Shown in pieces: positions 29,031 to 49,708 of a stretch of 62,708 nucleotides of DNA. A program made the translations under genes and the position numbers. The stretch comes from Fibrobacter sp. (GTDB taxonomy: Bacteria; Fibrobacterota; Fibrobacteria; Fibrobacterales; Fibrobacteraceae): assembly GCA_024398965.1 (NCBI GenBank), contig JAKSIF010000015.1:1-62708 (forward strand). The letters are read 5' to 3'. The notes beneath the pieces are model-generated. The model was not told the DNA's origin. It saw only the letters and a program-made list of their open reading frames with translations, and did no database searches. The stretch's first letter is position 1. Each line of letters starts with the position of its first letter.

Positions 29031-30116
29031 CTAAATATCAAAGAATAGGGAAATATAGGGGCCTTGACCAAAATTAGTGATGATGGAATAGCCACCTTCA
29101 AGACCAAGGAATCCAGACTTGATATAGGCTCCAGTCCTGTAAACCGTACTTAAGACGGAACTTCCATCAATATGCCAGGCCAAGGTCTGACGAAAACCAA
29201 TAAAGGGGAAACCCGCTTCAACTTGGGCCGCAGGCATGATGGCTCCATCAAGATACCCAAAGTTGGTATAATTGAGGTTGGCTGCAAAAACTCCGCCCAC
29301 GCCAAGAGCCATTCTCCATTCATTTTCATATCCCGCAAGGAAGAAGGCGTCCGCGGACCCTCTAAGAACGAGTCCGTTTCCTTCTACATCTTCCAGATAG
29401 TACGGAGAATTAGGATACAAAACATAGGGGTTTATAGTAACGGCCATGCGGATACTGGAGAAGAACCCGTGTTCAGAACGAGTCAGCATCGACGGAATGC
29501 CTGCAACAGCAACTTGATTCGCAGCATTCGGTACTGCAGTTGCAGAAGCGCTGGAACCCTTGACAACAGCAGCAGGCGCAGGACATACAATACTTGCACT
29601 GGGGACATAGCGGATCGGTTCACGCTTAGACGGAGGAAGCTGTTCCGGAGCGGCGTCAGGAACAAATACCGGAGCAGGCTGGGCAACAGGTGTAGGCTGC
29701 GCAACAGGGGCTGGTGCAGGGGCGGGCTGAGGAGCGGCTACAGGCTGGGCAACAGGTGTAGGCTGCGCAACAGGAGCTGGTGCAGGAGCGGGCTGAGGAG
29801 CGGCTTCTGGCTGGGCAACAGGTGCAGGCTGCGCAACAGGGGCTGGTGCCGGAGCAGGCTGAGGAGCTGCTTCTGGCTGGGCAACAGGCGCCGGCTGCGC
29901 AACAGGGGCTGGTGCCGGAGCAGGCTGAGGAGCTGCTTCTGGCTGGGCAACAGGCGCCGGCTGCGCCACAGGGGCTGGTGCCGGAGCAGGCTGAGGAGCT
30001 GCTACTGGCTGGGCAACGGGTGCAGGCTGCGCAACAGGTGCTGGTGCAGGAGTCTGTCCCATAGAAAAGGCGAATGCAGACAAAACACAGATTGACAACT
30101 TTGAGAACTTCTTCAT
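29031..30116 (-). CDS. secreted protein with Pro/Ala repeat stalk and beta-rich C-terminal domain
   Basis: 361 residues. A signal peptide ([20 protein letters not shown]) is followed by 5.6 copies of a 22-residue Ala/Pro/Val/Gln unit (about residues 26-149), then a short linker, a cysteine-containing segment ([12 protein letters not shown]), and a C-terminal half with amphipathic beta strands ending in [10 protein letters not shown], with terminal aromatic residues typical of outer membrane barrels. The Pro-rich part could span the periplasm or wall, as in TonB- or OprF-like stalks. I do not recognise the family. Start 30116 follows GAGGG; it lies 11 bp after the stop of the upstream gene, so they form an operon. 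Confidence 0.65.
29670..30041 (-). repeat. 66-bp tandem coding repeat
   Basis: Five full units and one partial unit of 66 bp encode [12 protein letters not shown], then (V/E)AAPQPAPAP. The middle three units are nearly identical at DNA level, a sign of recent expansion or homogenisation and a probable site of copy-number change between strains. Confidence 0.85.
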
Positions 30117-46208: not shown

Positions 46209-46442
46209 CTAAATTCCCATATCCAGCTTATCTAGTGACTTCTTAACAGAATCGGCATACCTGTTCAGGGAATCCAGATTTGTCTGCAGAGAATCAGCCG
46301 TTTTCTGAAGAGAGGCATTTTCCTGGGTCAGGCGGGCGATTTCAGCCTCGGCTTCCTTGTCAGAGCAACCCATGGCGGTTAAAGCGAAAAGAATAAAGGT
46401 CAAAGTCGAAAGAGGTGCGCAAATTTTCTTCAGCATTTTCAT
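46209..46442 (-). CDS. small coiled-coil lipoprotein
   Basis: 77 residues from MKMLKK. A signal with lipobox TAMGC is followed by a heptad-type helix (EAEIARLTQENASLQKTADSLQTNLDSLNRYADSVKKSLDKLDMGI), resembling murein lipoprotein in size and build but without the C-terminal Lys for peptidoglycan linkage (it ends Met-Gly-Ile). Probably an outer membrane lipoprotein forming a coiled-coil trimer or dimer. Its 5' side faces the decamer array. Confidence 0.7.
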   Translation of the reverse strand: MKMLKKICAPLSTLTFILFALTAMGCSDKEAEAEIARLTQENASLQKTADSLQTNLDSLNRYADSVKKSLDKLDMGI

Positions 46443-46492: not shown

Positions 46493-46870
46493 TTAGGACT
46501 AACATTTAAAATAAATAGTTTCAGTTCTATCAAAAATCCGTAAAACGTATGGCTCAATAGGACTAAAACACGCGCTTGTACATTTTAATCCTATGAAAAT
46601 CGTTGAAAAATTTTCTCACTAGGATTACGATGCTTGATTTGGAATTTTAGTCCTAGCAAAGAGCAAATAGTCAAAGAGAATGTTAGGACTAATACGAAAT
46701 AAAGCGATTTTGGTTCTATGAGCCTATGGGATGCAAGTAAAAAAATAAGGCTAGTCTAAGAGTTTTAAGGGATTAGTCCTAACCAATTCTCCCAACACAT
46801 TGATTGCCTAGGACTAAAGTCACAACAGATAACAGTTAGTCTTAACAATCTTCTACGAACAATCATCTGC
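46493..46870. repeat. array of six 63-bp units with paired inverted decamers
   Basis: Decamers close to TTAGGACTAA start at 46493, 46557, 46619, 46683, 46745 and 46808; the inverted form (near TTAGTCCTAA) starts at 46521, 46585, 46647, 46710, 46773 and 46836. Spacing between direct copies is 62-64 bp and from a direct to its inverted partner 27-28 bp in each unit. The 17-18 bp inside and 24-26 bp between pairs are not conserved. The 482-bp gap 46443-46924 contains this array and otherwise nothing recognisable. Confidence 0.85.
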
Positions 46871-46924
46871 GAAATACCAAAATTTCTATGTTTGATGAAG
46901 AACATAAGCAACGGTACAGTCACG

Positions 46925-49708
46925 ATGAAAGAACAAGAACTTTTGATGCCTGTGGGAACCTGGGACATGCTGGAAGCCGCCGTGAAGAACGGGGCCAACG
47001 CCGTTTATTTTGGAGTCCCTCACTGGAATGCCCGCGGCCGCACCGAGGATTTTTCTTTCGAAGACGTTGGAGCAATGATCCGCTATGCCCGCGCCCACGG
47101 AGTCCGCAGTTTTTTGGCGATGAACGTTCTTGTGTTCGAGCGCGAACTGCAGGGCCTGCCGGAATTCTTGGCGAAGATTATTGAACTGAAGCCCGACGCA
47201 TTTATTATCCAGGACATTGGCCTTGCTCGCCTGATTCGCGCCATCTGCCCCGAGCAGGAAATACACGCCAGCACCCAGATGACCTTGGCCAGCGCCGAGG
47301 GCGTAAACCTGGTGAAGCCCATCGGATTCAACCGCGCAGTTCTAAGCCGCGAACTTTCTGCCAAGCAGATTGCCGCAGTAAAGGCAGGCACCGACCTTGA
47401 AATAGAAGTTTTTGTTCATGGTGCCCTTTGCGTTTCTTATTCCGGACAGTGCCTCACCAGCGAAAACTTCGGCGGACGTTCCGCAAACCGCGGGCAGTGC
47501 GCCCAGAGTTGCCGCCTTCCCTACCGCATTTTCGTAGACGGCAAGGAATATACTGAAACCAACGCGCAATACTTGTTCAGTACTAGGGATTTGTGCGCCC
47601 TGCCCAAGCTGAAGGAACTGGCTGAAATCGGCGTGGAATCCCTGAAGGTGGAAGGCCGCCTGAAGAGCCCCGAATATGTAGCAGCGGTGACAAGAGCCTA
47701 TAGGAAGGCTTTGAATAATTTAGGTGAAAGCGGGAAGAACCGCGCTTTAGGTGAAAGCGAAAAGAACCGCGCGGACTTGGGATTGGAAAGCGCCGACCTG
47801 GAGCCGCTGGAAGTTCTGTTCTCCCGCGGTTTAACCACCGGCTGGCTAGATGGCGATAACCATCAGGAACTGGTGAACGGAACCTTCAGCAACCACCATG
47901 GGATGTATTTAGGCAAGGTGGTGAAAGTGGACCGCGGAGCAGTTTATGTGGAACTGAATATGCCTGCCTCCATGGTTAGCAGGGATGGCGCAGACAGAAA
48001 CACCGCACTCCCCCGCCCCGGCGACGGCATCTTGTTTGAAGATGCGACCTTCGGAATAAGTACTGGCAGCCGTTTGTACGGTGCAGAGATGGTGAAGAAC
48101 GCCCACAACAGGCGCGGTGATGGCATGCGTGGCATTGGCCCCGTGCTACGACTGGATTTCAGCCGTGATTTTGACATGCGCCAGATTGGGCGGAACATGG
48201 ACGTTTTCCGCAACGACTCCCCCGCTCTTGAAAAAGAACTGCGCAAGACATTTACCGACCGCAACCAAGAAACGAAGCGTCCCGTGAACATGGAATTGAC
48301 GGGCGCAGTAGGCGAAAAACTGACCTTGAAGGTTTGGCTTGCTGGCACAACCCTGATGCAGGGAGTAGACAAGGCGGCTGTCGTTGAAAGCGAAAGCCCG
48401 CTGGAAGCCGCGAAGAACGCCGTGGATCCTACGGCCATTGAGGCTCTAGCCCGCAAGGAGCTGGGCGGATTGTCGTCCACGCCTTACGAACTTGGAACGC
48501 TGATGGTTCGCGTGGACGGCACACCTTTCGTTCCCGGAAAGGTGCTGCGCAACCTGCGCCAATCCGCCGTGCAGCAGCTTGAAGATGTTCAGCTCCAGTG
48601 GAAGGAAATGCACGTGAGCGCCGCCGAAGGACGCAAGTTCCTGGAAGATGTTATAAAAAAACAGCTAGATCCTTCGACTTCGCTACGCTACGCTCAGGAT
48701 GACAAGCAGGGTTCACAACGCAAAGTTCAGGATGACAAGCAGGGTTCACAACGCAAAGTTCAGGATGACAAGCAGGGTTCGCAGCGCAAAGCTCAGGATG
48801 ACTCTAGGGAATCTTTCGGTATCATTTCCAAAGTAACAAAGCCCGTAATTTCTGTCCTGGTCCGTAACCCGGACCAGATTGCTGCCCTGAAGGGCCTTGC
48901 CATCGACAACGTCATCATGGACTTTGACTGGGGCGTCAAATACGACGAACCCCTCCAGCAGATTCGCGACCTTGGTTTCAAGGCAGGCATGGCCACCCTT
49001 CGCATCCATAAGCCTGGCGAAAACCATTACCTGAGAAAGATTCTGGAGCTCTGCCCCGACTTCGCCCTGGTACGTAACCTAGGTTCCCTTTCCATTCTCA
49101 AGGACAGCGGCATCCCTCTGGTTGGCGACTACAGCCTGAACGCAGCCAACAGCGCCAGCTACCAGTGGCTTTTGGACCAGGGCCTCACCGCCCTGCATCC
49201 CTCTTGGGACTTAAACAGCACCCAGCTTTTCGACCTGCTGGACAACATCGACGGAAGCCGTCTGGAACTGACACTTCACCAGTACATGCCCGCCTTCCAT
49301 TCCGAATACTGCGCCTTTGCAAGGAGCCTTACCACAGGCCGACGCTTCCCGGAATGCGGCAAGATCTGCACCCAGCACAAGGTTGAAATCGAGGACCATA
49401 AGGGCGAACGCCACTTCCTGCAATCCGATGCGGAATGCCGCAACACTTTGTTCGTAGGCCACCCGCAATCCGCATTAAAGTTGTTGCCGCAGCTCCGCAC
49501 CGCAGGCGTAAACCGTTTCCGCCTTGAAATGCTGAACGAAGACGCCGAAACCGTCCGCCGCAAGGTGCTGATCTACACCCAGGCAATCCTCGGGAAGATT
49601 TCCATCGAAGACGCCATCAAGCAGGCAGGTATTCAGGAAAAGTACGGTTTAAGCGAGGGCCAGCTGTTTAACGACAGCACCTGGCAAAACCGCAAGAAAT
49701 GCGACTAA
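46925..49708 (+). CDS. U32-family protein with DUF3656-like C-terminal half
   Basis: 927 residues from MKEQELLMPVG. The U32 core is clear: KNGANAVYFGVPHWNARG, DAFIIQDIGLARLIRAICPEQEIHASTQMT, VHGALCVSYSGQCLTS, ANRGQCAQSCRLPYRI, and LKVEGRLKSPEYVAAVTRAYRKAL, with the Cys residues that in relatives (RlhA, TrhP) bind an iron-sulphur cluster. The second half (about 300-900) fits long U32 proteins. The family was named for peptidases but tested members hydroxylate RNA, so an RNA-modifying role is likely. Two insertions of repetitive DNA occur at 47720-47773 and 48665-48812. The array at 46493-46870 lies directly upstream. Confidence 0.85.
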   Translation: MKEQELLMPVGTWDMLEAAVKNGANAVYFGVPHWNARGRTEDFSFEDVGAMIRYARAHGVRSFLAMNVLVFERELQGLPEFLAKIIELKPDAFIIQDIGLARLIRAICPEQEIHASTQMTLASAEGVNLVKPIGFNRAVLSRELSAKQIAAVKAGTDLEIEVFVHGALCVSYSGQCLTSENFGGRSANRGQCAQSCRLPYRIFVDGKEYTETNAQYLFSTRDLCALPKLKELAEIGVESLKVEGRLKSPEYVAAVTRAYRKALNNLGESGKNRALGESEKNRADLGLESADLEPLEVLFSRGLTTGWLDGDNHQELVNGTFSNHHGMYLGKVVKVDRGAVYVELNMPASMVSRDGADRNTALPRPGDGILFEDATFGISTGSRLYGAEMVKNAHNRRGDGMRGIGPVLRLDFSRDFDMRQIGRNMDVFRNDSPALEKELRKTFTDRNQETKRPVNMELTGAVGEKLTLKVWLAGTTLMQGVDKAAVVESESPLEAAKNAVDPTAIEALARKELGGLSSTPYELGTLMVRVDGTPFVPGKVLRNLRQSAVQQLEDVQLQWKEMHVSAAEGRKFLEDVIKKQLDPSTSLRYAQDDKQGSQRKVQDDKQGSQRKVQDDKQGSQRKAQDDSRESFGIISKVTKPVISVLVRNPDQIAALKGLAIDNVIMDFDWGVKYDEPLQQIRDLGFKAGMATLRIHKPGENHYLRKILELCPDFALVRNLGSLSILKDSGIPLVGDYSLNAANSASYQWLLDQGLTALHPSWDLNSTQLFDLLDNIDGSRLELTLHQYMPAFHSEYCAFARSLTTGRRFPECGKICTQHKVEIEDHKGERHFLQSDAECRNTLFVGHPQSALKLLPQLRTAGVNRFRLEMLNEDAETVRRKVLIYTQAILGKISIEDAIKQAGIQEKYGLSEGQLFNDSTWQNRKKCD
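47720..47773 (+). repeat. 27-bp tandem duplication inside the U32 gene
   Basis: Two copies of a 27-bp unit encoding LGES(G/E)KNRA, with three base differences. It lies between two otherwise continuous parts of the U32 region and probably extends a surface loop. Confidence 0.8.
48665..48812 (+). repeat. dispersed repeat and 33-bp tandem repeats inside the U32 gene
   Basis: CTAGATCCTTCGACTTCGCT, then ACGCTACGCTCAGGATGAC, is an inverted relative of the lpxD repeat (27378). It is followed by three 33-bp units starting at 48695, 48728 and 48761 (QDDKQGSQRKV) and the start of a fourth at 48794. The reading frame stays open throughout. The first three units differ at two or three bases. Confidence 0.85.

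Follow-up and report, generated by a model that had tools for sequence, protein, structure and literature searches.

The window, that is, the whole stretch of 62,708 nucleotides of Fibrobacter sp. DNA analysed here, contains an array of six units (46493-46845) that fills the gap between a minus-strand gene for a small lipoprotein-like protein and a plus-strand gene for a U32-like peptidase. The two genes are divergent, and transcription of both leads away from the array (Table 1). Each unit consists of an inverted pair of half-sites of approximately 9 bp round an unconserved spacer of approximately 18 bp, and the inverted copy starts 27-28 bp after the direct copy. The spacers of the array are unrelated to each other. 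All twelve decamer positions and the spacings reported in an earlier note on this DNA were confirmed, as was the start of the array; its end, given there as 46870, is in fact at 46845. The start of the left ORF was set at the ATG at 46442, from the lipoprotein-like signal MKMLKKICAPLSTLTFILFALTAMGC. The U32 label of the right gene is that of the earlier note, where it was given from the sequence.

Table 1. The array and its flanking genes (positions in the window; distances are from the start of the preceding unit).
Feature	Start	End	Strand	Direct half-site	Inverted half-site	Mismatches	Spacer	Distance, bp	Remarks
Small lipoprotein-like ORF (left flank)	46209	46442	-						transcription leads away from the array
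Unit 1	46493	46530	.	46493-46502	46521-46530	3/20	N18		
Unit 2	46557	46594	.	46557-46566	46585-46594	3/20	N18	64	
Unit 3	46619	46656	.	46619-46628	46647-46656	4/20	N18	62	
Unit 4	46683	46719	.	46683-46692	46710-46719	3/20	N17	64	
Unit 5	46745	46782	.	46745-46754	46773-46782	4/20	N18	62	
Unit 6	46808	46845	.	46808-46817	46836-46845	2/20	N18	63	
U32-like peptidase (right flank)	46925	49708	+						ORF 46892-49708, likely start 46925; transcription leads away from the array

Repeats of other kinds were observed in the same window. The U32-like gene holds in-frame tandem repeats of 33 bp (3.3 copies, 48694-48802) and 27 bp (2 copies, 47719-47772). The 33-bp repeat expands a segment containing LRYAQDDKQGSQRKV, and this segment has the look of a dispersed intergenic repeat across which the reading frame continues. 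A GC-rich, apparently coding 66-bp tandem repeat (5.7 copies, 93% matches) is located at 29677-30052.

Units were scored as TTAGGACTAA-N17/18-TTAGTCCTAA with at most 6/20 mismatches. Among 1000 dinucleotide shuffles of the 551-bp region, 916 contained no unit, 81 contained one and 3 contained two, as against six in the real sequence; the comparison with shuffled sequence proposed in the earlier note thus favours a real array. Genome-wide, the pattern TTAGGACTAA-N18-TTAGTCCTAA with at most three mismatches occurs 37 times versus once for the reversed control, and TAGGACTAA-N18-TTAGTCCTA has 20 exact occurrences versus none. The source genome (G000) carries about 11-12 array clusters, located on contigs C2, C3, C4, C5 (two clusters), C6, C11, C15 (the window), C25, C62 and C79, so that some dozen arrays of one dialect are spread over at least nine contigs of one genome. 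A related TAGTACTAA array is located on C4. Three of the twelve decamers of the window array are exact (46493, 46683, 46773), four more have at most one mismatch (46557, 46647, 46808, 46836), and the remainder have 2-4 mismatches; for this reason the array is counted among the more degenerate ones of the genome. It is a degenerate member of the TAGGACTAA set.

This distribution bears on several of the first suggestions. Some dozen arrays scattered over many contigs do not fit the iteron-like and centromere-like functions that the earlier note proposed. Nor is there a specific link to the U32 gene: the candidate partner gene lies elsewhere, and a local explanation by the two flanking genes was rejected because the same type of array occurs at about 11 unrelated loci. 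The chance that the arrays are accidental or recent tandem duplications is close to nil, given the shuffles, the genome-wide counts against the control, the many integer-turn spacings described below, and spacers that are unrelated both in the window array and in most others. The duplication explanation does find some ground in two arrays of C11 and C62 (L026:9558-9806 and L028:8247-8548), which consist in part of 53-bp tandem duplications and whose spacers are conserved. They are unlike the others: between most arrays of the source genome both the spacers and the flanks are unrelated.

The distances between units are 53, 63, 74, 84, 95, 105, 116 and 136 bp, that is, 5 to 13 whole turns of the helix. 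Pooled over 57 arrays with 161 spacings, where 6-bp arms were allowed and a few weaker or spurious calls are included, and where some arrays are orthologous between genomes and not all are independent, the phasing gave R=0.856 with the best period of 10.5 bp and phase 0. With one spacing per array (n=57), p is approximately 8e-17. For the 78 spacings of strict gene-adjacent arrays, called without a phase condition, R=0.948. The idea of a kept geometry, with equivalent sites facing one side of the helix in a multi-site platform, had been put forward in the earlier note and is strongly supported by integer-turn spacing over 5-13 turns in three dialects of the source genome and in many other genomes.

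Two of these dialects have half-sites other than TAGGACTAA. The TGTCACTAA dialect was read from the array adjoining a family gene of C28 (see below); three more loci with these arms came to light afterwards, where the spacings are 105 and 84, 105 and 74, and 168 bp. The third, GTTACTAAA, has spacings of 95 and 74, 95 and 95, and 95 and 85 bp. Its arrays, of the form GTTACTAAA-N17-TTTAGTAAC (L269:6335-6538, L270:6471-6695 and L027:14324-14538, on C4, C12 and C25), are phased at 7-9 turns. No family gene was found near them or identified for this dialect in the source genome; they may be either orphan arrays or sites of a paralog that escaped the search.

Averaged over 31 arrays, the footprint is confined to the arms: the identity between units is 0.72-0.98 only in the stretches that lie 9.5-17.5 bp to the left and to the right of the dyad, and elsewhere it is at background, with a small bump at the dyad. 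The composition there differs between dialects. Units of G028, e.g. L145:21-222, have a G-rich spacer centre (GGGGGT), several other dialects are A/T-rich at this place, and this hints at a dialect-specific contact at the dyad.

Substitutions in the arms are uncompensated in 71 cases and compensated in 7, and since arm changes are so rarely compensated, the arrays are treated here as DNA sites rather than hairpins. The same count largely refutes the RNA-hairpin option that the earlier note had held open for the array as a whole, whether the hairpins are imagined as terminators, as 3' processing signals or as RNA-binding sites. Some outer units do form extended hairpins followed by T-runs. However, helical phasing has no role in RNA, arrays also occur upstream of genes, and Rfam, searched with seven array loci at the gathering score, returned tRNAs only. 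A function at the RNA level is thus very improbable.

Dispersed arrays occur in convergent gaps much more often than expected from background. In the source genome 9 of the 11 dispersed arrays of the TAGGACTAA dialect (the TAGTACTAA array counted) lie in gaps between convergent genes, and so do 19 of all 33 called dispersed arrays, as compared to 6 of the 58 intergenic gaps of at least 150 bp in 400 kb of the source genome; these counts use crude ORF calls, and some convergent pairs are missed. The window array, with its divergent neighbours, is an exception. In five arrays the outermost units facing a gene end carry 6-8 T on the correct strand and resemble intrinsic terminators. The inner units generally have no terminator-like T-run. 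Both observations would suit a device of chromosome architecture or transcription insulation, in which the arrays form roadblocks between convergent genes or bridge distant loci, and nuclease activity is secondary. However, the TGTCACTAA and GTTACTAAA arrays occur in other contexts with no bias towards convergent gaps, the catalytic residues of the protein family described below are invariant, which argues that cutting matters, and genomes lacking the family gene manage without the arrays, several having ordinary terminators at the lgt site. As an account of the whole system, insulation is possible, with the evidence leaning somewhat the other way.

The search of related genomes suggested in the earlier note was productive. 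The pattern GGACTAA-N18-TTAGTCC was found in 11 of about 73 sampled Fibrobacter genomes, the source genome counted; the sampled Fibrobacterota outside this genus lacked it. The Fibrobacter dialects differ (TAGGACTAA, AAGGACTAA, TACGGACTAAA). An array between tldD and lgt is common to G000, G023, G081, G077 and G064, although its spacers have diverged; where it is missing, the two genes are separated by a short gap or by an ordinary terminator. TTGTAGG arms account for the otherwise different glgA array in G023 and G081. Arrays of the same type with TGGGACTAAA, TACGACTA or TCAGACTAAA arms were found in metagenome-assembled genomes (MAGs) of rumen Clostridiales. A phage origin of the arrays was considered and rejected, as 2.9 million viral contigs yielded one lone match, and the viral relatives of the protein family share only its C-terminal domain, in RecD-like helicases.

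As to a conserved neighbour, also proposed for checking in the earlier note, the likely partner of the arrays is a family of PD-(D/E)XK-like proteins of about 280 aa, and the member that would go with the window array appears to be encoded elsewhere in the source genome. A protein of about 290 aa was first met beside an array in G000 (C5, next to lspA) and between two arrays in G028. Immediately upstream of the C5 gene (L024:8373-9251, minus strand) is an array whose arms are also those of the window array. The product of this lspA-adjacent paralog is the probable partner of the window array. When 43 genomes were searched at the protein level, each of the 11 Fibrobacter genomes with GGACTAA arrays proved to have the family, as did four of the Clostridiales genomes. 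The same search found no family gene in G131, G133 and G134, where only one or two lone array matches occur.

Several genomes without GGACTAA arrays carry family genes. It was noted beforehand that such genes should adjoin arrays with other arms, and this was confirmed: the paralog-specific arms beside them include TAGTATG, TTGTAGG, TACATAC, GTACAGG, TGGGTAC, TACTAGC, GGTACTA, TGCTAC, CATACTTTT and more. With a strict detector, which required three or more units with arms of 7-8 bp and set no condition on phase, an array was called within 800 bp of 31 of the 47 family genes, and 27 of these 31 arrays are upstream of the gene; in the control, 2 of 782 pieces of 860 bp were called (0.3%, arms of 7-8 bp). 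Detection with 6-bp arms gives false calls on about 8% of the 860-bp control pieces and 75% of the 3.8-kb pieces, and the adjacency counts were therefore limited to 7-8-bp arms. Approximately 8 of the 16 genes without a strict array have a weaker one by eye. In Clostridiales, a small number of genes have the array on the downstream side instead. Of 148 genomes sampled from the order to which the Clostridiales MAG G128 belongs, 67 have the family, with up to 8 copies each; of the ten loci of this order that were newly examined, five have clean arrays in phase, with 7-8-bp arms.

In two cases a family gene lies between near-identical arrays: on C31 of G077 (L208; 255 bp, 98%) and in G028 (L145:20-222 and 1650-1854; 209 bp, 92%). 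This suggests that an array and its gene may be rearranged together, by movement or duplication. Simple copying of arrays is argued against by the spacers, which are unrelated elsewhere. One could imagine a selfish homing or gene-drive-like element, in which the nuclease cuts the arrays and the gene spreads among them, so that a dispersed array would be either a landing site or a scar. The two flanked genes, the many paralogs per genome (up to 8-9), their patchy gain and loss, the invariant catalytic residues and the location of arrays at safe intergenic sites agree with it. On the other hand, dispersed arrays share neither spacers nor flanks with the gene-side array, which leaves little homology for repair-driven copying, an intact array remains beside the gene, and the lgt arrays, vertically inherited in five genomes and matched to the local dialect, are unlike scars. 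We consider homing unlikely.

One family gene with no detectable array, that of G092 (L228, C5), is situated directly downstream of a tmRNA-like sequence; the tmRNA gene is a common integration spot. A nearly full-length distant relative of the family (approximately 28-30% identity), likewise with no array detected, is encoded in MT839528.1, an unannotated contig of a human gut 'Bacteriophage sp.' (L245).

The family proteins are about 280 aa long (range 260-330), with a PD-(D/E)XK domain at the C-terminus preceded by a variable N-terminal part. No significant match was found in Pfam, NCBIfam and PHROGs, and no relative among solved structures. In their C-terminal half they are similar to PDC-S68, a PADLOC candidate, whose C-terminal domain is matched with E-values down to 4e-26 over only the last 110-140 or so profile positions; the corresponding domain of RecD-like helicases in viral contigs is matched as well. 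Eight residues are invariant in all 47 proteins: R164, K166, E168, D199, F200, E214, H215 and G217 (numbering of A1). Homology and the conserved acidic core place the family among the predicted members of the PD-(D/E)XK nuclease superfamily, and the invariant residues are those expected of a working enzyme of this kind.

The relationship to PDC-S68 raises the prospect of defence or self-control, the arrays serving as a sponge or an inactive assembly from which the nuclease is freed by phage infection or loss of an array, or else being cut in programmed self-destruction. Rapid turnover of specificity and copy number, and the fact that dispersed sites stay in register with the local protein, are compatible with this. 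However, no neighbouring defence genes were noticed, the occurrence of homologs of the domain in RecD-like helicases means that the relatedness to PDC-S68 is at the level of the domain only, and a sponge needs no placement in convergent gaps. A defence role is doubtful.

The N-terminal part of the protein is the more variable one: its mean identity is 0.31 versus 0.48 in the C-terminal part. The similarity of half-sites tracks the identity of the proteins (Mantel r=0.49, 0/2000, with 6-bp arms allowed and hence a few weaker or spurious array calls included), and the partial correlations are 0.31 for the N-terminal part and 0.08 for the C-terminal part. A natural domain swap was observed between the proteins of G079 and G023_C12, which are 93% identical in the C-terminal part and 42% identical in the N-terminal part, and have different half-sites. 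From these correlations we infer that the N-terminal part probably binds DNA. At the lspA locus, lspA itself is 87-92% identical across G000, G023, G077 and G064, whereas the nuclease of G000 is 41-44% identical to those of the other genomes; the arms change from TAGG to AAGG both at this locus and in dispersed arrays, that of lgt among them. A counter-point is that the G000 protein is only 41-44% identical to proteins paired with nearly identical AAGGACTAA arms.

Several known systems resemble the arrays in some respects. One parallel is offered by the RAYT (Y1 HUH) nuclease genes flanked by REP/BIME elements, with clustered palindromic units, often at 3' ends of genes, a gene for a cognate nuclease-type protein flanked by them, and lineage-specific dialects. 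However, a REP unit is conserved including its loop, whereas the arrays conserve only two 9-bp half-sites and leave the spacer free; moreover, the distances here are whole turns, the protein is PD-(D/E)XK rather than Y1 HUH, and the arrays are not copies of each other. Inverted half-sites, an unconserved spacer of fixed length, and separable specificity and nuclease parts are shared with engineered TALEN and zinc-finger nuclease sites and with the modular dimeric nucleases of the FokI type. The present system, in which cleavage is predicted, differs from these in being natural and in its phased arrays of many units, which occur both in the host chromosome and next to the gene itself. PDC-S68, PDC-S69 and HEAT_CxxC_PDDEXK of PADLOC and the RecD-like helicases share the homologous C-terminal domain over some 110-140 residues; PDC-S68 and the helicases are fusions of about 1150-1270 aa, whereas the family consists of stand-alone proteins of 260-330 aa with their own N-terminal part and arrays.

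The C-protein operators of restriction-modification systems and the sites of homing endonucleases offer a parallel in that they are autogenous, lie upstream of a nuclease-system gene and change rapidly in specificity. In contrast to the former, the arrays have many units and occur at unrelated loci; no cognate methyltransferase was noticed beside the family genes inspected. In contrast to the latter, whose recognition site is interrupted by the gene, intact arrays adjoin the genes and most arrays contain no inserted gene. Integron attC sites and CALINs, CRISPR, parS and iteron arrays are all repeated elements with inverted or regularly spaced features. There are no cassettes in the arrays, and units mostly 53-116 bp apart leave no room for them. 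CRISPR, judged a poor fit in the earlier note too, has identical direct repeats and spacers of one length, whereas the repeats here are inverted pairs of about 9 bp at variable distances quantised in helical turns (53-136 bp apart in one family). Iterons and parS are one or few sites near an origin or partition genes, and the arrays are dispersed over many loci. A likeness of GGGACTAAA to direct repeats of Cas13a was judged a coincidence.

Taken together, the window array is very probably one of about a dozen dispersed arrays to which a nuclease-like PD-(D/E)XK protein binds sequence-specifically, the gene for this protein being located in another part of the genome. In the mechanism that we infer for binding and cleavage, two subunits would hold the two inverted half-sites through their variable N-terminal parts, and the paired nuclease domains would be placed over the central spacer in the fashion of engineered TALENs and zinc-finger nucleases. 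Several dimers would align on one face of the helix and cooperate. As most family genes carry an array, the gene-side array may serve autoregulation. The dispersed arrays would most likely be sites of cooperative docking by which the ends of genes are marked or insulated, combining a roadblock with a terminator; titration of the nuclease and its conditional cleavage at the arrays are close alternatives.

More generally, the data point to PD-(D/E)XK nucleases that are modular, dimeric and sequence-specific, use helically phased arrays of inverted half-sites, and probably make up a natural class of wide occurrence. Each paralog would have an array at its own gene and some would have co-evolving dispersed sets, with several parallel address systems in one genome. 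A search of the open-access literature by sequence and by topic retrieved no description of such an array-nuclease system. If the interpretation is correct, this is a new kind of genome-addressing system in which the DNA specificity is recorded beside most family genes, in a family that is large in gut bacteria, where it occurs not only in Fibrobacter but also in one order of rumen Clostridiales (67 of 148 sampled genomes). Since half-sites can be read directly from DNA, comparison alone could suffice to derive the code by which the N-terminal part recognizes them, as was the case for TAL effectors. The arrays also offer a test of the use of helical phase over 5 to 13 turns, and bear on the question of why bacteria keep protein arrays in the gaps between convergent genes.
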